Below are positions 26,662 through 38,820 of a stretch of DNA of 64,000 nt, in pieces (positions within the stretch are counted from its first letter, which is position 1; the number at the start of each line of letters is the position of its first letter). The position numbers and the translations under genes are program-made. Under the pieces are notes generated by a model, which saw only the letters and a program-made list of their open reading frames with translations, was not told the DNA's origin and did not search any database. Origin of the DNA: Lacunisphaera limnophila (lineage in GTDB: Bacteria; Verrucomicrobiota; Verrucomicrobiia; Opitutales; Opitutaceae); the NCBI RefSeq assembly GCF_001746835.1, contig NZ_CP016094.1, forward strand, positions 2,356,001-2,420,000, written 5' to 3'.

Positions 26662-27642
26662 TCAAAGGGCCGGCGCGTTTTCCGGGCGGACGGGGTAGAG
26701 CTGCCACGCGATCTCGCGGGCGGGGCGGGCGGGGGCGCCTTCGAGCAGGTGGCGCCAGCGGGCGAATTCCACCTCGAGGAGCGCGGCGGCGGCGGCGCGG
26801 AGGCGGGCGGAGGCGGGGGCCAGGTGGCAGAGGTGCAGGAAGGCGTCGCGGGCCAGCGCGGGGTCGGCGTAATCGCGGGGATCTTCCCATGCGGCGGCAA
26901 GCCACTCGCGGCAGCCGGGACGCACGAGGTGGGGAAGGATGGAGGTGTGCCAACGGCGCAGCAGGCGCGAGGTGTTCTGCTCGTCGCGGAGTTTGCGGCC
27001 GGCGGAGGCGCTGATGTGGTGGCGCACGACGCTGTGCAGGGCCACGTGGTTGGTGTGACCGGCGGCGAGGGCGCGCAGGCAGAAGTCCACGTCCTCGCAG
27101 CCGTTGACGTAACCCTCGTCGAAGCCCCCGAGTTCGCGCCAGACGTTGGCGGGCACGGCGAGGCAGGCGCCGGTGACGGCCACGACCTCGCGGACCGCGG
27201 CGACCCCGCGGTGGGTGGCGTGGGCGGGTTTGCCCTTCGTGTTGAAGAAAATCCCCGTGTGGTCCACGGCACCGCTGGCGAAGTCCAGCTGGACGTTCCC
27301 GACCGCGCCGGCGCGGGGGAAGCGGCTGAAGACGTCGAGGATGGGGGCGAGCCAGCCGGGCAGGAGTTCCAGATCGTTGTTGAGGAAGAAGAGGAATTCG
27401 CCGGTCGCCGCGGCCGCGCCGCGGTTGCAGGTGGCGGCGAAGCCGAGGTTCTGCTCGTTGAGCACGACCCGGCAGGGCGAGCCAAGCCCGGTGAGCCAGT
27501 CGCGCGTGCCGTCGGTCGAGCCGTCGTCCACCAGGATGATCTCGTGGGCGAGATCGGCGGGCACGGTGGCGCGCAGGCTGGTCAGCATCGCCTGCGTGAG
27601 GGGCAGGCAGTTGTAGAGCGGGATGATGAACGAGACCTTCAT
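26662..27642 (-). CDS. GT2 family glycosyltransferase (rhamnosyltransferase-type)
   Basis: A 326-residue soluble GT-A enzyme. FIIPLYNCLPLTQAML, LVDDGSTDGTRDW, NLGFAATCNRG and FLNNDLELLPGW are the successive GT2 motifs, the last carrying the DXD-type site. VTGACLAVPANVWRELGGFDE and CEDVDFCLR complete the acceptor-binding part, and this ED..DFC form is common in rhamnosyltransferases. Its start overlaps the stop of the previous GT2 by four bases (ATGA, 27639-27642). The rmlA-rmlB-NRS/ER-like genes upstream on the same strand would supply the rhamnose donor. Rhamnose as substrate is an inference. Confidence 0.87.
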   Translation of the reverse strand: MKVSFIIPLYNCLPLTQAMLTSLRATVPADLAHEIILVDDGSTDGTRDWLTGLGSPCRVVLNEQNLGFAATCNRGAAAATGEFLFFLNNDLELLPGWLAPILDVFSRFPRAGAVGNVQLDFASGAVDHTGIFFNTKGKPAHATHRGVAAVREVVAVTGACLAVPANVWRELGGFDEGYVNGCEDVDFCLRALAAGHTNHVALHSVVRHHISASAGRKLRDEQNTSRLLRRWHTSILPHLVRPGCREWLAAAWEDPRDYADPALARDAFLHLCHLAPASARLRAAAAALLEVEFARWRHLLEGAPARPAREIAWQLYPVRPENAPAL

Positions 27643-30096: not shown

Positions 30097-30972
30097 CTAC
30101 AGCAGCCGCTTTAGGTATTCGCCGTAGGAGGACTTGCCGAGCTTCTTGATGTTGGCCTCGAGGCCGGCGCGGTCGATCCAGCCGTGCTTGTAGGCGATCT
30201 CCTCGATGCAGGCGATCTTGAGGCCGGTGCGGTTCTCGAGGACGTGGACGAAGGTGGCGGCCTCGACAAGCGAATCGTGGGTGCCGGTGTCGAGCCAGGC
30301 GGTGCCGCGGCCGAAGAGCTCGACGTGCAGGGTGCCCTTTTCGAGATACAGGCGGTTGAGATCGGTGATCTCGAGTTCGCCACGTTTCGAGGGCTTGAGG
30401 CTGCGGGCGAGGGTGACGACCTCCCGGTCGTAGTAGTAGAGGCCCGGGACGGCGTAGTTGGACTTGGGCTGCGCGGGTTTTTCCTCGAGGGAGAGCACGC
30501 GGCCGTCGGGCGCGAATTCCACGACGCCGTAGGCGGTGGGGTTGGCGACGTGATAGCCGAAGATGGTGGCGCCGCTGGTGCGGGCGCTGGCTTCCTTCAG
30601 GGAGGCGACGAACTCCGAACCGTAGAAGAGGTTGTCGCCGAGCACGAGGGCGCAGGGTTCGGTGCCGGTCAGGAAGCCGGTGTCGCCGGCGATGGTGAAG
30701 GCCTGGGCGAGGCCGTCGGGGCTGGGTTGCTCGGCGTAGCTGAATTTCACGCCGAGGTTGCCGCCGTCGCCGAGGAGCTTGCGGAAGAGGGGCAGGTCGG
30801 TGGGCGTGGAGATGATCAGGATCTCGCGGATGCCGGAGAGCATCAGGACCGACAGCGGATAGTAGATCATCGGCTTGTCGTAGACCGGCATGAGCTGCTT
30901 TGAGACCGCGATGGTCAGGGGGTAGAGCCGGGTGCCGGAGCCACCGGCGAGGATGATGCCTTTGCGATTCAT
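30097..30972 (-). CDS. rmlA: Glucose-1-phosphate thymidylyltransferase RmlA
   Basis: A 291-residue nucleotidyltransferase that makes dTDP-glucose from dTTP and glucose-1-phosphate, the first step to dTDP-deoxysugars. The signature [11 protein letters not shown] lies at residues 10-20, followed by [20 protein letters not shown] and VLGDNLFYG. Length and motifs are standard for RmlA/RfbA. It lies 128 bases downstream of rmlB, with an inverted-repeat element between them. It supplies the substrate for RmlB. Confidence 0.97.
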
Positions 30973-31100: not shown

Positions 31101-32156
31101 TCAGGCTTGGGTGCCGAGACGTTCCAATTTGTAGGAGCCGTCGAGGATGCCTTTCCACCAGGACTCGTGGTCCAGGTACCACTGGACGGTTTTCCGAAAA
31201 CCGGAGGTGTGGTCCTGCTTCGGGGTCCAGCCGAGCTCGCGTTTGATCTTGGTGGCGTCGATGGCGTAGCGGAGGTCGTGGCCGGGGCGGTCGGTGACGA
31301 AGGCGATCTGGTCGGCGTATTTTTTGCCGTCGGCGCGCGGGCGGAACTCGTCGAGGAGGCCGCAGAGCAGGCGCACGAGGTCGATGTTCTGGCGCTCGTT
31401 GTTGCCGCCGATGTTGTAGGTCTGGCCGGTGCGGCCGCGGGCGACGACGGTGTGCAGGGCCTCGGCGTGGTCGCCGACGTAGAGCCAGTCACGGATGTTC
31501 TCGCCCTTGCCGTAGACGGGGATCGGGTCGCCGCGCAGGGCCTTGAGGATGACGACGGGAATGAGTTTCTCCGGGAATTGGTAGGGGCCGTAATTGTTGG
31601 AGCAGTTCGTGACGAGCACAGGCAGCCGGAAGGTGTCGGCCCAGGCGCGGGCGAGGTGGTCGGATGAGGCCTTGCTGGCGGAGTAGGGGGAGTGCGGGTC
31701 GTAGGGGGTCTCCTCGGTGAAGAGGCCGGTGGCGCCGAGGGAGCCGTACACCTCGTCGGTCGAGACGTGGAGGAAACGGAAGGCATCCTTGGCCGGGCCG
31801 GCGAGCGACTCGAAGTGGGCGCGGGCGGCCTGAAGGAGGGTGTAGGTGCCGACGACGTTGGTTTGGATGAAGGCGCCGGGACCGTCGATCGAGCGGTCGA
31901 CATGGCTCTCGGCGGCGAGGTGCATCACCCAGTCAGGCCTGAATTCCACGAAGAGTTTCGTCATCGCCGCGGCGTCGCAAATATCAGCTTGGGCGAAGCG
32001 GTAGCGGGGGTTGCCCTCGAGGTCGGCGAGTGAGCGGCGGTTGCCGGCGTAGGTCAGCGCGTCTACGTTGAGCACGGTGTGTTCCGTGGTGGAGACGAGG
32101 AGACGGACGAGGTTGCTGCCGATGAAGCCGGCGCCGCCGGTGACCAAAATGTTCAT
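31101..32156 (-). CDS. rmlB: dTDP-glucose 4,6-dehydratase RmlB
   Basis: A 351-residue extended SDR that turns dTDP-glucose into dTDP-4-keto-6-deoxyglucose. GGAGFIGSN (7-15) binds NAD; Thr133-Asp134-Glu135 in HVSTDEVYG and Tyr158/Lys162 in YSASK are the complete RmlB active site. [17 protein letters not shown] and [17 protein letters not shown] are further family motifs. It lies between the NRS/ER-like gene (17-base gap) and rmlA on the same strand. The keto product should be passed to the NRS/ER-like protein. Confidence 0.97.
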
Positions 32157-32173: not shown

Positions 32174-33043
32174 TCAGGCTTTACGCCAGGTGCGCAGGGC
32201 CTGGGTGATGGCGTCGTGGACCTCGGTCATCCGGATGCCGGTGGCGGCGAGTTTGGCGGAGGTCATGGTGCAGTTCGAGCGCGGGGTTTTGGCAGCGGTG
32301 CGCATGAACTCGGCCTCGTTGGGGAAGAACTTGAAATCCTTGGTGGCGACGCCGGACTTTTTGATCAGGTCGACGACCTCGCGGGTGGTGACCTCGCCGG
32401 GGTTGGTCACGTTGTAGGTGCCGAAGGGGACGCGTTTTTCCCAGCAGGCGAAGGTGGCGGCGACGAATTCCTCGAGTTGGGAGATCGAGTTGGCGGCCTC
32501 AAGGAGGGTGTCGTAGCGGATGAGCTTGGTGAGGTAGTTGCGGGGGTTGTCGACCTCGTTGAAGGGGATGCGCAGGCGCCAGATGTAGACATCGGGCCGG
32601 CCGGCGAGCACCTCCTCGCCGAGGGCCTTGGTGCCGGAGTAGAAGCTGCAGTTGTCGGTGCGGAAGGTGAAGTTGGGCGTATCGGTCTCGGTGAAGCCGG
32701 TGCCGTCGGGGCGGGAGCCGGTGTAGATGCAGCCGGAGGAAACGTGGCCCCAGGGGACGCCGGCGTCGGTGCAGGCCGCGGCAATGCGGCCCGGGAGCAC
32801 GCCATTGCCGAAGAGGCACTCGGCCTTGTGCAGCTCGCAGGCATCGACGTTGGGCTTGCCGGTGTAGCCGGCGGCGTTGATCAGGAAGGCGGGCCGCTCA
32901 CGGCGAAGGAGGGAGGTCAGGGCGGCCTGGTCGGTGTAATCGAAGTCCGCCCGGCGCAGGTTGCGGAAGGGCAGGCCCTTGCGTTGCAACAGGGTCTGAT
33001 AGGCTGAGCCGACGTAACCGGAGCCACCGAGGAGGAAGATCAT
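32174..33043 (-). CDS. RmlD-superfamily protein resembling bifunctional NRS/ER epimerase-reductase
   Basis: A 289-residue SDR beginning [16 protein letters not shown], with YSGTK (135-139) as the YxxxK motif. It resembles the plant nucleotide-rhamnose synthase/epimerase-reductase (NRS/ER, UER1) more than bacterial Rml[58 protein letters not shown] and PRSN all have near matches in that family as I remember it. Cys105 and Lys173 lie at the places of the plant residues reported as Cys115 and Lys183 for epimerisation, with the same spacing of 68. One protein could thus do both 3,5-epimerisation and 4-reduction to a rhamnose nucleotide. No rmlC is nearby. Activity is inferred. Confidence 0.78.
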
Positions 33044-33097: not shown

Positions 33098-34768
33098 TCA
33101 GTGGGGGGATTTCAGGTGATAAATCCGGGTCGATCCGATCTGGGCTTGGAGCGCATATCGCTCGGCAATCAGGGTCTGCAATGCCGGGAAGATTTCGTGG
33201 CCGTGGCGGGCGGCGTCGAAGACGAAGGCGCCGGGCCCGGTGGCATCGACAAACCACGCGGGCTGCCGGGCCTGCAGGTCCCGCAGGTAGCGCGAGCGGT
33301 AGAAATCCTGCATGGGTCCCGCGAAGAGTTGGAAGGCGCTGTGCGCCTCGCGGGTACCTTGGGCCAGTTGGGTCTCGACGTGGAGCCGGGGCTCCCAGCC
33401 CCAGACGGTCAGCAAATCGCCGGGCTGGGAACGGGCCTGGATGTGGCGGGCCGCCGCTGAGGCGGGGGTGGCGAGGTGCTCCGCCAGTTGTCCGGGGTGA
33501 AACGGCACGGCGAGCCAGCGGTTAACCGCCTGGGGCAGGACCGTGAGCAGCAGCAGGACGGCGAGCAGGCTTGCCGGGATCCCGCGGAAAGCGCGGCCCG
33601 TGGTGGGCGGGCTCGCCAGATGGAGGCCGGCGAGCAGGGTGAGGGGACCAACGAGCAGGTGGAGGTAATGGGCGACGCGCCGGCCGGGATAAATGACGCA
33701 GAGGTAAGCGAGCAGGACGAGGAGCCAGGCGGCGAGGAGGGCGCGGCGGCGGGTCACATCGGCGGCCTGCCAGACGGCATGGGCGCGATACAGCACGTAG
33801 GCCATGGTACCGTAGAAGAACCACGCGAAACTTTGTCCGGTCGTGAGGAACGACCAGAAATAGTTGGGCATATCGTGGAGCGGGTGGTCGCGCGAGCCGG
33901 CGTAGGCAAGGTTGCTGACCACGTAGGAATACCAGAATTGCGCCTCGAGACCGTAGACCACGAGGAACAAGCCGAGGCCCGCGCCGACGAGCAGGGCTCC
34001 ACCCACGAGGCCGGCGGCGAGGCGGACCCAGCCGGCGGGGCGCGACCAGACAAGGGTGGACAGCGCGGCGAGGCCCAAGACCAGGGCGAGGGGCGTGGCC
34101 TGGAGCTTGGCCAGGGGGACGAGGGCAAGCAGGGCGCCGGCGACCAGCGGGGCGGTGCGGCTCGGCGCCTGGGGGCGGAGCATCGCCGTCAGCGCCCAGC
34201 CGGCGCCGGCGAGCAGGCTGACCGCGACCAGCTCGCTGGAATAGTGCACGTAGTCACCGGCCCAGGAAAAGGCCCAGACGCAAAGCGCGGGGAACACGGC
34301 CAGCCGGACGGCGGGTTCCGCCAGGAACGGGCGCAAGGTTTGCCACAGGCAGATGAGGGTGCCGGCGAGCAGCAGGGTGGCCATGGCCCGGGCTCCCGCG
34401 TGGGTCAGCGGCAGGCCGAAGAGCGCGGCGAGGTTGAGGGCATACTCGTTGAGCGGGCCGTGGGTCGTGCCGTCGACGTATTTCCAGAAGACAGGGGAGG
34501 ATTGCAGCGTGAGGGCCCCGGCGACGATCTGCGACTCGTCGGGATTGAACTCGACGGGGGCAAACCACGAGGGCCAGCGAAAGGCGAGGAGGGTCAGCAG
34601 CAGCAGGCTGGCGAACACCGCGGGGTGGCCCAGAAAAGGGGCGCGGGATGACGGCGCGGCCGGCCGGGAGGGCGAGAGCGCGGAGGCCAGGCCGAGGGCG
34701 AAACAACCCCAGGCAGTCAGCCCATGGGCGACGGGATGGGTGTCCAACCACTGGAGGAAGGACATCAT
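33098..34768 (-). CDS. Multi-pass membrane protein, GT39/GT-C-like
   Basis: A 556-residue protein with about eleven membrane spans through residue 430 and a soluble tail. After the first spans the loop contains FNPDESQIVAGALTL, the acidic motif expected of PMT/ArnT-type transferases, followed by TTHGPLNEYAL. Such enzymes transfer a sugar from polyprenyl phosphate in the periplasm. The GT2 gene lies six bases upstream on the same strand and could make that polyprenyl-linked donor. The start has two consecutive ATGs, 34768 and 34765. Substrate unknown. Confidence 0.72.
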   Translation of the reverse strand: MMSFLQWLDTHPVAHGLTAWGCFALGLASALSPSRPAAPSSRAPFLGHPAVFASLLLLTLLAFRWPSWFAPVEFNPDESQIVAGALTLQSSPVFWKYVDGTTHGPLNEYALNLAALFGLPLTHAGARAMATLLLAGTLICLWQTLRPFLAEPAVRLAVFPALCVWAFSWAGDYVHYSSELVAVSLLAGAGWALTAMLRPQAPSRTAPLVAGALLALVPLAKLQATPLALVLGLAALSTLVWSRPAGWVRLAAGLVGGALLVGAGLGLFLVVYGLEAQFWYSYVVSNLAYAGSRDHPLHDMPNYFWSFLTTGQSFAWFFYGTMAYVLYRAHAVWQAADVTRRRALLAAWLLVLLAYLCVIYPGRRVAHYLHLLVGPLTLLAGLHLASPPTTGRAFRGIPASLLAVLLLLTVLPQAVNRWLAVPFHPGQLAEHLATPASAAARHIQARSQPGDLLTVWGWEPRLHVETQLAQGTREAHSAFQLFAGPMQDFYRSRYLRDLQARQPAWFVDATGPGAFVFDAARHGHEIFPALQTLIAERYALQAQIGSTRIYHLKSPH

Positions 34769-34774
34769 GCCGCG

Positions 34775-35533
34775 TCAGCGTTTCCGGTAGTCGCCGCGGC
34801 TGAAGTATTTTTCCAGCCAGACGTAGGCGCAGATGAAGAAGTAGCGGCTGCCCATTTCCTTGATCTTGAGCTTGGCCTCGCCGTATTTGCGGTTGTGCCA
34901 GGAGATCGGAATGACGGTCCAGGTGTAGCCGCGCACGATGGCCTTGAGCGGGATCTCGACGGTGAGGTTGAAGTGCGGGCTGAGGAAGGGGCGGCAGCCC
35001 TCGATGACGGTGCGGCGGTAGGCCTTGAAGGCGTTGGTCGTGTCGTTGAGGGCGATGGCGAAGCCGATGCGCACGAGAAAATTCGCGATGCGGTTAACCC
35101 AGAGCTTCACGCGCGGGTAGTCGACAACCTGGCCGCCCTTGACGAAGCGGCTGCCGAAGACGCAGTCCCAACCCTCGTTGAGCAGGCGCCAGTAGCGCAC
35201 GGCGTCGGCGGGCGAGTCGGAGGCGTCGGCCATCATGATGGTGCAGGCGTCGCCCTGCATATGGTTGAGGCCGAAGACGACGGCGCGGCCGAAGCCGTTG
35301 GGCCCCTTGTTCTGCACGGGGGCGAGGGTGGGGATGGCGGCGCGGAGGTCCTGGAGAACCTGCCAGGTGCCGTCCTTGCTGGCGTCGTCCACGACGACGA
35401 TCTCGTGCGGGACCTGCTCGCGGCTCAGCACCTCGTACAGGGCGCGCAGGGTCGGCGGCAGCGATTCCTCCTCGTTGTGGGCGGGGATGACGATGGAGTA
35501 GAGCTTGAGCGGCGCGGGTGAGGCCTCGGGCAT
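34775..35533 (-). CDS. GT2 polyprenol-phosphate glycosyltransferase, DPM1-like
   Basis: A 252-residue GT-A enzyme without clear membrane spans, the size of eukaryotic and archaeal DPM1. YSIVIPAHNEEESLPPTL, VVDDASKDGT and MMADASDSPADAVRYW are the nucleotide and DXD-type motifs; GSRFVKGGQVVDYP and NAFKAYRR are characteristic of polyprenyl-phosphate mannosyl/glucosyltransferases. It is six bases from the GT-C-like gene, consistent with a donor-maker and donor-user pair. The sugar is unknown. Confidence 0.88.
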   Translation of the reverse strand: MPEASPAPLKLYSIVIPAHNEEESLPPTLRALYEVLSREQVPHEIVVVDDASKDGTWQVLQDLRAAIPTLAPVQNKGPNGFGRAVVFGLNHMQGDACTIMMADASDSPADAVRYWRLLNEGWDCVFGSRFVKGGQVVDYPRVKLWVNRIANFLVRIGFAIALNDTTNAFKAYRRTVIEGCRPFLSPHFNLTVEIPLKAIVRGYTWTVIPISWHNRKYGEAKLKIKEMGSRYFFICAYVWLEKYFSRGDYRKR

Positions 35534-35587: not shown

Positions 35588-35682
35588 AAATTAAGAATTA
35601 AGAAGGAAGAATTAAGAAACAGCCTCGAACCTTGCCTGGCGACGGGCTCGTTTCTTAATTCTTAATTCATCCTTCTTACTTC
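35588..35682. repeat. AT-rich inverted repeat overlapping an epimerase stop codon
   Basis: Arms 35588-35620 and 35650-35682 match at 26 of 33 positions with a 29-base GC-rich spacer. Arms are built of AATTAAGAA-type units and are strikingly AT-rich against the surroundings. The right arm covers the last bases of the epimerase gene including its TAA stop (35678-35676 on the minus strand). It lies between two genes of one leftward operon. Confidence 0.85.
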
Positions 35683-36752
35683 TCCCGCGGGGCGGAGAGT
35701 TCGAGCCAGCCGGGGTGTTGTTCGGCATGGGTGGCGATCTCCGCGAGGATGGCAGGGGTCGGGGTGGCGGGGTGCCAGTCCCAGAGGCGGGTGGCCTTGG
35801 CGTGGTCGAGGACCATCCAGCCGATGTCAAAGGGGCGCGGGGTGCCGTCCTCCACGACGCCGTGCGGACCGAAGCGTTGGGCGCACCAATCGCTGAGCTG
35901 GCGGAGGGACATGGCGGAGGCGGCACCGCCCGAGAAATTGGCCAGGCGGTCGGCGGCGGGGAGCGGGGGCGCGGCAAATTGTTTTTCCAGGACGGGCAGG
36001 AGGTCGCGCGGGTGGAGGCAGTCGCGCACCTGGTGGCCGAGGCCGCCGAAGCCGAGGTACTTGAGCGGCTTTTTGCGGAGCCAAGCGTTGATCCAGTAGG
36101 CGAAGATGCCCTGGTCGGCGCGCCCGAACTGGCCGGCGCCGGCGAGCACACCGCAGCGGTTGATGAAGACCGGAAAGCCGAAGGTCTCGCCGTACTCGAG
36201 GGCCATGGCCTCGGAGGCAAGCTTGGTGGCGCCGTAGAGGGAGATGGGGGCCTGGGTGGGGAAGGACTCCGTGAGTCCGGCCGGGCTGACCCCGGGGGGG
36301 AGATCCGCGGCGCCCGGGGGGAGGCCGAGGGCATCACCCTGGGCGACGAGGGGCAGGCGGGTGAGCGGGGGGATCGAGTAGACGCGGCTGGTGGAGAGCA
36401 GAATGAAACCGGCCCGGTGGGTCTTGCAGTATTCCAGCAGGTTGATCGTGCCGGTGAGGTTGTGGTCGACGAGTTCGCGGGAACTGGTCTTGCCGTCGAT
36501 GCCGGCGAGCACACTGGGGTTGGCGGCGGCATCCAGCACGAAATCCGCGGCGGGCAGGGCGTCCATGGCGCGGGCGTCGCGCAGGTCGGCGGTCAGGATG
36601 GTCGCGCCGAGCCGCTCCAACGGCGCGCGGTTGGTCTCGCTGCCCGGGCGGATGAAGTTGTCGAAACCCGCCACCGTGTGGCCGGCGGCGAGGAGTTCGC
36701 GGGCCAGGGTGCTGCCGACGAAGCCGCAGATGCCGGAGATCAGGATTTTCAT
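35676..36752 (-). CDS. Extended-SDR nucleotide-sugar epimerase, CDP-tyvelose 2-epimerase-like
   Basis: A 358-residue enzyme with the NAD-binding GICGFVGS at residues 7-14 (the third Gly of GxxGxxG is kept) and the complete YGATK motif at 173-177, with STSRVYS at 120-126. NRCGVLAGAGQFGRADQGIF is the type of sequence seen in the CDP-paratose/tyvelose epimerase group. First gene of the long leftward run. Its stop codon lies in the arm of an inverted repeat that separates it from the GT2. No CDP-glucose genes are in the window, so the substrate is uncertain and could be another 4-keto or 2-epimerisable sugar nucleotide. Confidence 0.83.
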   Translation of the reverse strand: MKILISGICGFVGSTLARELLAAGHTVAGFDNFIRPGSETNRAPLERLGATILTADLRDARAMDALPAADFVLDAAANPSVLAGIDGKTSSRELVDHNLTGTINLLEYCKTHRAGFILLSTSRVYSIPPLTRLPLVAQGDALGLPPGAADLPPGVSPAGLTESFPTQAPISLYGATKLASEAMALEYGETFGFPVFINRCGVLAGAGQFGRADQGIFAYWINAWLRKKPLKYLGFGGLGHQVRDCLHPRDLLPVLEKQFAAPPLPAADRLANFSGGAASAMSLRQLSDWCAQRFGPHGVVEDGTPRPFDIGWMVLDHAKATRLWDWHPATPTPAILAEIATHAEQHPGWLELSAPREK

Positions 36753-37378: not shown

Positions 37379-37720
37379 CTAGACCGCCGCGGCCGGGGGT
37401 GGGAGATAGTCCTCCCTGACCGGCGAGAAGACCTCGATCGCGACCGAATCCTCGAGGATGGCCGCCTCGTGCTCGACATTGCCGGGGATGCACCAGCTGT
37501 CGCCCGGCCGTACGTCGAAGGTGTCGGTCCCGATGGTGAGGCGCAGGTGTCCGCTGACCAGGTAGCCGGTCTGCTCGTGTGGGTGGGCATGCCGCGGCAG
37601 CGGATGGCCCCGGGCGAGGCGGAATTCCGCGAAGAGCGTGTGCTGGCCGTGGACCAGCGTCTTGAAGCGCACGCCGGTGAAGGGCTCGCGGTAACCGGAG
37701 GGATGGGCGGGGGTGAACAT
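37379..37720 (-). CDS. Small cupin-fold protein
   Basis: A 113-residue single cupin. The metal-binding motif PRHAHPHEQTGYLVSG gives His44, His46 and Glu49, and the second motif PGDSWCIPGNVEHE gives His84. Such proteins act as sugar isomerases, small-molecule binding proteins or enzymes; nothing in the sequence fixes the role. It is not RmlC-like: RmlC is about 180 residues with a different motif set. It lies 38 bases after the epimerase gene on the same strand, so it may act on the same nucleotide sugar. ATG 37720 chosen; other in-frame ATGs upstream give only low-complexity sequence. Confidence 0.82.
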   Translation of the reverse strand: MFTPAHPSGYREPFTGVRFKTLVHGQHTLFAEFRLARGHPLPRHAHPHEQTGYLVSGHLRLTIGTDTFDVRPGDSWCIPGNVEHEAAILEDSVAIEVFSPVREDYLPPPAAAV

Positions 37721-37758
37721 GGGTCGCCCCGGCATCAGGGGGTGCGCGGGGGCGCGGA

Positions 37759-38820
37759 TCAGGCCGGCTGGTGACGGGTCTTCCAGGCCTCGACGATCTG
37801 GCGGATCGTTTCCTCGAGGGACTGGGTGATGTCCCACTTCGGGTAGTGGGCGCGCATCTTGCGGAGGTCGGAGTAGTAGCAGATGTGGTCGCCGGCGCGG
37901 TTCTGGTCGACGTAGGTGAAGACCTGCGCCTTACCGGTGAACTTCTCGGCGATCTTGAAGGCCTCGAGGATGGAGGTGCTGTTGGCCTTGCCGCCGCCGA
38001 GGTTGTAGACCTCGCCGGCACGCGGGTTCTCGACGAAGGCGGCCATGAAGCGCGCGACGTCGAGCGAGTGGATGTTGTCACGCACCTGCTTCCCCTTGTA
38101 GCCGAAGACGCGGTACTCCTTGCCCTCGAGGTTGCACTTCACGAGGTAGGAAAGGAAGCCATGGAGCTCGACGCCGCTGTGGTTCGGGCCGGTGAGGCAG
38201 CCGCCGCGCAGGGCGCAGGTGGGTAGGTTGAAATAGCGGCCGTATTCCTGGACCATGACGTCAGCCGCGACCTTGGAGGCGCCGAAGAGCGAGTGCTTGG
38301 ACTGGTCGATGGTGAAGGTTTCGGGGATGCCGTGGGCATAGGCCGGGTCGGCGTAGTCCCAGCGCGTCGCGAGTTCCGTGAGTTTGATGCCGTTCGGGGC
38401 GTCGCCGTAGACCTTGTTCGTGCTCATGTGCACGAAGGGCGACTCGGGGCAGGCCTGGCGGGCGGCCTCGAGGAAGTTCAGCGTCCCGACGGCGTTGGTG
38501 TCGAAGTCATCGAAGGGAATGGCCGCGGCCCGGTCGTGCGAGGGCTGGGCGGCGGTGTGGACAATGACGGACGGCTTGACCGACTGGACGAGCGCGAGCA
38601 CGCCGGCGCGGTCGCGGATGTCGAGCTCGTGGTGGACGAAACCCTTGAGGTCCGAGACCAAGCGGTGCTGGTTCCAGCGCGTGTCACCCTGCGGGCCGAA
38701 GAAGACGGCGCGCTGGTTGTTGTCCACGCCGTGGACGGTGTAGCCCAGCGAGGCGAAATAAACGCAGACTTCCGAGCCGATGAGGCCCGAGGAACCGGTG
38801 ACGAGGAGGGTCTTGGCCAT
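37759..38820 (-). CDS. Extended-SDR, CDP-paratose/tyvelose 2-epimerase-like
   Basis: A 353-residue enzyme. [11 protein letters not shown] (7-17) binds [14 protein letters not shown] (133-143) and [19 protein letters not shown] are hallmarks of the CDP-paratose 2-epimerase (TyvE/RfbE) group. The YxxxK Tyr reads Phe179 with Lys183, a form I remember for this branch. [13 protein letters not shown] and [13 protein letters not shown] are also typical. It starts a two-gene unit with the cupin. The upstream genes of a CDP-dideoxyhexose pathway (rfbF, rfbG, rfbH) are absent, so the actual substrate is open. Confidence 0.87.

Follow-up and report, generated by a model that had tools for sequence, protein, structure and literature searches.

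It is highly likely that the SDR encoded at 32174-33043 of the window (the whole 64,000-nucleotide stretch of Lacunisphaera limnophila DNA analysed here) belongs to a prokaryotic NRS/ER type, a putative bifunctional 3,5-epimerase/4-reductase that replaces RmlC and RmlD in a three-gene dTDP-L-rhamnose operon. The bifunctional reading is based on the similarity of the protein, its residues, its fold, its operon and an exchange with rmlC-rmlD that is observed in related genomes.

The gene and its neighbourhood

The open reading frame lies on the minus strand, starts with ATG and encodes 289 amino acids; rmlB follows after 17 bp and rmlA comes next. The features of the locus on which the argument draws are as follows.

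26662-27642, minus strand: glycosyltransferase-like protein (by eye); in each of the two locus types described below, homologues stand downstream of rmlA
30097-30972, minus strand: rmlA, glucose-1-phosphate thymidylyltransferase (TIGR01207, 466.1 bits against a cut-off of 360.65)
31101-32156, minus strand: rmlB, dTDP-glucose 4,6-dehydratase (TIGR01181, 487.3 bits against a cut-off of 365.1)
32174-33043, minus strand: NRS/ER-like SDR, putative dTDP-4-keto-6-deoxyglucose 3,5-epimerase/4-reductase (G6xxG9xxG12, C105, Y135xxxK139, K173)
33098-34768, minus strand: protein without a family match, membrane-type by eye, between the GT2 gene and the NRS/ER-like gene
34775-35533, minus strand: family-2 glycosyltransferase (GT2; PF00535), part of the upstream flank that, within the family, NRS/ER-bearing loci have in common with rmlCD-bearing ones
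35676-36752, minus strand: SDRb, SDR of the NAD-dependent epimerase/dehydratase type (PF01370), upstream flank in both locus types by synteny
37759-38820, minus strand: SDRc, SDR of the NAD-dependent epimerase/dehydratase type (PF01370), likewise upstream flank in both locus types by synteny

The adjacency of rmlA and rmlB that a preliminary description of this DNA had read from the sequence stands, both genes scoring above their NCBIfam cut-offs and lying next to the SDR. The closest relatives of the SDR, among the best 80 of 460 genome-contig stretches, are 75-88% identical to it and all verrucomicrobial, mostly from Opitutaceae/Opitutia. Homologues of SDRc in other loci of the family, where seen, are 76-96% identical, and the protein at 33098-34768 has weak homologues in some loci. 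A Cupin_2 protein at 37379-37837 overlaps the end of SDRc (37759-38820); as a candidate for a hidden RmlC it was ruled out, since it matches Cupin_2 and not PF00908.

RmlC and RmlD in the Lacunisphaera genome

The genome that was searched is a single contig of 4,199,284 bases, 99.99% complete. It holds no match to PF00908, the RmlC profile, which finds matches in 11 of 14 control genomes, so the absence of rmlC first remarked on for the window extends to the whole genome. A typical rmlD had also been described as absent from the window, and indeed no protein of the genome reaches the cut-off of the rmlD model TIGR01214, nor does the genome (G000) contain a TIGR01214 match at E<=1e-45. The window SDR is the genome's top match to PF04321 (79.5 bits), a profile that covers nearly its full length. 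That coverage is one of the points in favour of reading the protein as a divergent RmlD, which would carry out C4 reduction only and leave the 3,5-epimerisation to an unrecognised epimerase outside PF00908, encoded elsewhere in the genome; we regard this as improbable, and its score of 70.7 bits against TIGR01214, where the cut-off lies at 224.05, already speaks against it. A further candidate for a hidden RmlD, at L007, was ruled out, with 42.7 bits to PF04321 and flanking genes that by eye are NeuB- and NeuC-like. The rhamnosyltransferase model TIGR01556 has one full-length match in the genome, at 139.9 bits; this is below the cut-off of 200.55, and as proof of rhamnose use it is therefore weak.

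Similarity to NRS/ER in sequence and fold

Among solved sequences the closest is Arabidopsis NRS/ER (4QQR; 128 bits, E 4.6e-36, about 32% identity), followed by mimivirus L780 (7JID; 69 bits, E 3.2e-18, 26% identity), and the best RmlD comes behind both at 45.7 bits (E 5.4e-11). A structure prediction had been proposed as a check, and an AlphaFold2 model, built from 44 window and locus sequences, reached a mean pLDDT of 95. Foldseek places chains of 7JID and 4QQR at ranks 1-4 for this model, and VIA-align gives Z scores of 34.3 for 7JID, 31.1 for 4QQR and 29.8 for the best RmlD, with other RmlD structures lower. RmlD folds are thus the next-best structures, only a few Z units behind, which lends something to a divergent RmlD and means that fold alone separates NRS/ER from RmlD modestly. 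Sequence and fold nevertheless agree in ranking NRS/ER above RmlD, which bears out the original comparison of this SDR with the plant enzyme.

The same comparisons bear on a bacterial dual-function enzyme of the GDP-fucose synthase type (Fcl), with GDP-sugars as substrates. Such an enzyme follows the same catalytic logic, with 3,5-epimerase and 4-reductase activity in one SDR, and the window protein does give a weak match to NF047922. The score, however, is 23.7 bits, far under the cut-off of 500, the nearest solved relatives are NRS/ER and not Fcl, and the neighbours are rmlA and rmlB, all of which makes an Fcl highly improbable here. The E. coli Fcl is likewise a dual 3,5-epimerase/4-reductase SDR, but it has a GDP substrate, and its second catalytic residue is a His, unlike that of the window SDR.

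The Cys105/Lys173 pair

The window SDR contains the SDR cofactor motif G6xxG9xxG12 together with Y135 and K139. By hand count, Cys105 and Lys173 align with Cys115 and Lys183 of 4QQR and with residues 111 and 178 of the 7JID chain, which are Cys108 and Lys175 in native L780 numbering. In plant NRS/ER, Cys115 and Lys183 are what we take to be the catalytic pair. The L780 residues lend support to that assignment, as Cys108 and Lys175 are reported to be key catalytic residues confirmed by mutagenesis (Chem Rev, PMC9614988). The placement of Cys105 and Lys173 at the plant positions, as first proposed, therefore holds up; the exact spacing of 68 to which the preliminary description also appealed is partly luck, because gaps between the two positions offset each other in the alignment, and mimivirus L780 has a spacing of 67.

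Close homologues have not lost the pair. Among the relatives collected, all 263 rows have Cys105 and 262 have Lys173 (one has Arg), these rows including some genes fetched more than once; of the two search patterns behind the 80 genome-contig rows, one included GCI, and the patterns of the viral scan included neither residue. In an alignment thinned to 110 rows, the NRS/ER-like rows (window, plant and mimivirus sequences among them) carry the Cys in 100 of 100 and the Lys in 99 of 100, and the RmlD rows, three solved and seven verrucomicrobial, have Tyr and Thr instead in 10 of 10. The window SDR differs from RmlD at both diagnostic positions, and the retention of Cys105/Lys173 among its relatives, with the absence of the pair from every RmlD row, is a second argument against a divergent RmlD.

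Exchange with rmlC-rmlD in sister genomes

Synteny is the main evidence that the NRS/ER-like protein probably forms the product of the rmlC-rmlD route, and it is a stronger argument than the genome counts given below. In all ten of the top RmlC loci that were fetched, from family genomes without the NRS/ER-like gene, rmlC is followed directly by rmlD. Two of these loci (L077 and L081) show the order SDRc, SDRb, GT2, rmlC, rmlD, rmlB, rmlA, GT2; a third (L080) is alike from SDRb on, and three more (L078, L079, L082) are alike in part. Loci that bear the single gene (L072, L074 and others) read SDRc, SDRb, GT2, NRS/ER-like gene, rmlB, rmlA, GT2, and the window locus has the same gene order as the rmlCD loci where enough flank was fetched. 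One slot between the same flanks, filled either by rmlC-rmlD or by a single gene, is what would be expected if one protein replaces both. It is also a further difficulty for a divergent RmlD, since the exchange is with rmlC and rmlD together and not with rmlD alone. Among wide loci of the family that carry the NRS/ER-like gene, 31 of 34 have rmlB on the same stretch, the others being L050, L053 (a 4.6-kb contig) and L062.

Distribution in the family and phylum

An enzyme of this kind in a bacterial rml operon had been called unusual; it is at any rate not a lone case, as 111 of 150 family genomes carry the NRS/ER-like gene and so do many viral contigs. The genomes are related, so the p values that follow, for family and phylum alike, overstate the evidence. 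Any PF00908 protein is found in 10 of the 111 genomes with the gene against 14 of the 39 without it (Fisher p 2.4e-4), and RmlC at 230 bits or more in none of the 111 against 11 of 39 (p 1.1e-7). RmlD above its cut-off occurs in one genome with the gene (G041) and in 12 of the 39 without (p 2.4e-7); at E<=1e-45 an RmlD-like match occurs in 8 and 12, respectively, and the combination of RmlC with such a match in 3 (G008, G041, G134) and 12.

The PF00908 locus was fetched for two (G008 and G013) of the ten family genomes in which the gene coexists with a PF00908 protein. Their PF00908 proteins are divergent, with 33% and 39% identity to the rmlCD-type RmlC, and neither fetched stretch holds an RmlD match, that of G008 lying elsewhere. 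In G041 (C1:1501672-1502968) and G134 (C191:9390-10717), divergent rmlC-like and rmlD-like genes are neighbours at a distance from the NRS/ER-like gene, and the pair perhaps serves another dTDP sugar. A further genome (G019, contigs C1, C4, C7 and C12) has four copies of the NRS/ER-like gene, each with rmlB beside it and one at a contig start, which reflect either an assembly effect or a repeated cassette.

RmlB is present in 103 of the 111 family genomes with the gene. Another 14 family genomes have RmlB with neither the NRS/ER-like gene nor RmlC, in some cases perhaps owing to breaks between contigs, and one further genome was counted as RmlB-negative by elimination; the presence of RmlB is thus by itself no sign of rhamnose.

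Across 387 genomes of the phylum the NRS/ER-like gene was found in 48 and PF00908 in 249; in this search the weakest gene match was 2.2e-94 and others fell short of 1e-30, with at most six candidates scored per genome. PF00908 occurs in 8 of the 48 genomes with the gene and in 241 of the 339 without it (p 5e-13, the overlap counted by eye). Among 18 loci from other Verrucomicrobiota families, rmlB is on the same stretch in nine, and none of the stretches shows rmlC or rmlD. One family-level group (f11) includes four genomes with both the NRS/ER-like gene and RmlC (G189, G200, G217, G287). In the three of these that were fetched (L285, L286 and L287), rmlA, rmlB and rmlC are all absent from the stretch around the gene, which may therefore serve another route there.

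Proposed pathway

In the pathway proposed here, RmlA would make dTDP-glucose and RmlB would convert it to dTDP-4-keto-6-deoxy-D-glucose, the substrate of the window SDR. Cys105 and Lys173 would act as acid and base, deprotonating and reprotonating C5 and C3 and thereby inverting both, and the C4 ketone would then be reduced with NADPH by way of the SDR pair Tyr135/Lys139. Three genes, rmlA, rmlB and nrs/er, would thus suffice for dTDP-L-rhamnose, one SDR standing in place of the cupin 3,5-epimerase RmlC and the 4-reductase RmlD. We infer that a single chain has both activities, and likewise the step order, the use of NADPH, the dTDP substrate and the rhamnose product. A dTDP substrate would follow from the adjoining rmlA and rmlB, and it is plausible because L780 accepts both UDP and dTDP sugars (PMC9614988).

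Related enzymes are not uniform in function: the giant-virus relative Mg535 has reductase plus C3-epimerase activity only (PMC9614988). A bifunctional or mono-epimerising reductase for some other 6-deoxysugar, acting at C3 alone as Megavirus Mg535 does or leading to 6-deoxy-L-talose with the opposite C4, would fit that precedent and also the 14 family genomes with RmlB and neither route, in which the RmlB product must have other uses. We nonetheless consider it very unlikely, given that in sister genomes the gene sits in the rmlC-rmlD slot, between rmlB and conserved polysaccharide genes, and that L780, which forms rhamnose, has the same key residues.

Viral contigs

In IMG/VR, 321 stretches with relatives of the window SDR were confirmed, and the 80 that were kept (L191-L270) all carry both the Cys and the Lys. 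Within flanks of up to 4 kb, 37 of the 80 have rmlA and rmlB, 18 have rmlA only, four have rmlB only and 21 have neither. The spacing is tight: rmlA ends at most 60 bp before the NRS/ER-like gene in 35 of 55 cases, rmlB starts at most 60 bp after it in 18 of 41, and L237 and L247 have all three genes overlapping or directly adjoining one another. Six viral clusters were scanned with the family models, RmlA exceeding its cut-off in all six and RmlB in three, with the remaining RmlB proteins 15-18 bits short; other neighbours are mostly without a family. Near its cluster L214 has a PhoH-like gene, and L237 encodes a UvdE-type endonuclease that matches a PHROG.

The terminase profile phrog_2 finds a match in 31 of the 50 viral records searched (of 80), 28 of them at E <1e-20, and none in 19; because it also matches 11 of 14 control cell genomes, this supports a viral nature and is not proof of it. 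PF00908 goes unseen in 49 of the 50 records, many of which are fragments, so that absence from any one record is weak evidence; taken together they too count against a divergent RmlD with its epimerase encoded elsewhere. The sole match (G510, the record of L203) lies at 419-904, has in-frame stops and is perhaps a decayed rmlC, tens of kb from the NRS/ER-like gene on the same record. At 1e-15 the window protein matches nothing in named phages or plasmids, and named phages likewise give no match to a viral-contig member at 1e-8. A BFVD fold search gave two strong matches (E about 1e-22), both to giant-virus proteins, 627 and 934 amino acids long, and rows named as phages are weaker, the best at E 2.5e-14 with 15% identity.

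Relation to known systems

Plant NRS/ER (4QQR) and the C-terminal domain of RHM share the fold, the Cys/Lys pair and the Tyr-xxx-Lys motif of the window SDR. The plant NRS/ER and RHM enzymes favour UDP substrates (PMC6556577), whereas the rmlA-rmlB operon of the window gene implies dTDP. Its best fold match, mimivirus L780, is a UDP-L-rhamnose synthase whose gene lies away from the main glycan cluster of its genome (PMC9614988), in contrast to the neighbouring genes of the window. RmlC and RmlD have the corresponding position in the pathway, as they do in the operons of sister genomes, and RmlD shares the SDR fold, but they are two proteins, one of them a cupin, and the RmlD rows are without the Cys/Lys pair. 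An algal RmlC/D fusion from Prymnesium resembles the proposed window enzyme in using one protein for both steps (PMC6556577), though it is RmlC joined to RmlD and the tree in that paper sets it apart from NRS/ER and RHM.

Accounts of the bacterial pathway describe two enzymes as needed for this conversion (2022 review, PMC9614988) or, in a 2019 pathway legend, three separate bacterial enzymes (PMC6556577). The only bacterial proteins that Yin et al. 2011 (PMC3220709) found to be homologous to the plant domain were four from Verrucomicrobia; these very probably represent the same protein family as the window SDR, in the same phylum. They appear there as bare database matches, and the relevant passages of that paper mention neither an operon, missing rmlC/rmlD, residues nor phage relatives; the paper does not settle where the gene came from, and it proposes an integrated rmlC+rmlD donor operon. 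The available text of PMC12820599 and of a report on Synechocystis rfbC deletions (PMC12285223) contains nothing on NRS/ER. Verrucomicrobial homologues have thus been known since 2011, and a literature search that took in few subscription journals turned up neither the operon swap nor an assayed bacterial enzyme nor the phage clusters.

If the bifunctional reading is correct, genomes that seem incomplete for rhamnose because they lack rmlC are complete, inhibitors aimed at RmlC would miss these bacteria, and a compact one-protein rhamnose maker is available for synthesis. The rmlD model of NCBIfam scores NRS/ER-like proteins far under its cut-off. The viral clusters suggest that phages may make their own activated rhamnose, perhaps for remodelling of the host surface or for self-decoration.

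Phylogeny and origin

An unrooted tree puts RmlD on one side of a branch with support of 100* and the window protein among Verrucomicrobiota. With other SDRs as root, a single clade (96/97*) unites the plant and mimivirus sequences with those from bacteria and viral contigs, and RmlD forms a group of its own (92/83), apart from this clade, which contains the window protein, 4QQR and 7JID. Grouping with monofunctional RmlD proteins, which the preliminary description had named as a result that would count against its reading, is therefore not seen in either tree; that said, an AU test that joins RmlD with the bacterial and viral-contig rows does not reject this arrangement (p 0.124, with long branches in play), and to that extent a divergent RmlD keeps some footing. 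The eukaryote/giant-virus side is represented by two sequences only, and the place of this pair within the clade is unstable, being part of a multifurcation in the unrooted tree and joined to one viral-contig row at 82/77 in the rooted one.

One possible though rather doubtful history is that the NRS/ER type did not arise in plants or other eukaryotes but is an old prokaryotic and phage enzyme, that Verrucomicrobiota and above all tailed phages have a complete three-gene dTDP-L-rhamnose pathway of rmlA, nrs/er and rmlB, traded by phages, and that the NRS/ER and RHM of eukaryotes and giant viruses descend from this pool. If true, it would provide the integrated rmlC+rmlD donor operon postulated by Yin et al. 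2011, and the candidate donor operons make the origin of the plant 3,5-epimerase/4-reductase testable. In the unrooted tree a bacterial sequence (L284, from G416) groups at 99* with four viral-contig rows. Three of these partners were searched for terminase (L191, L217, L236; the fourth is L259) and gave no match or a weak one, so the hint of transfer is weak. The gene order at L284 is rmlA, NRS/ER-like gene, rmlB, as in viral contigs. Within the family, two rmlB lineages, with about 66-92% and 46-61% identity to the window rmlB, adjoin this one NRS/ER-like gene, and the two have apparently been exchanged independently of it.
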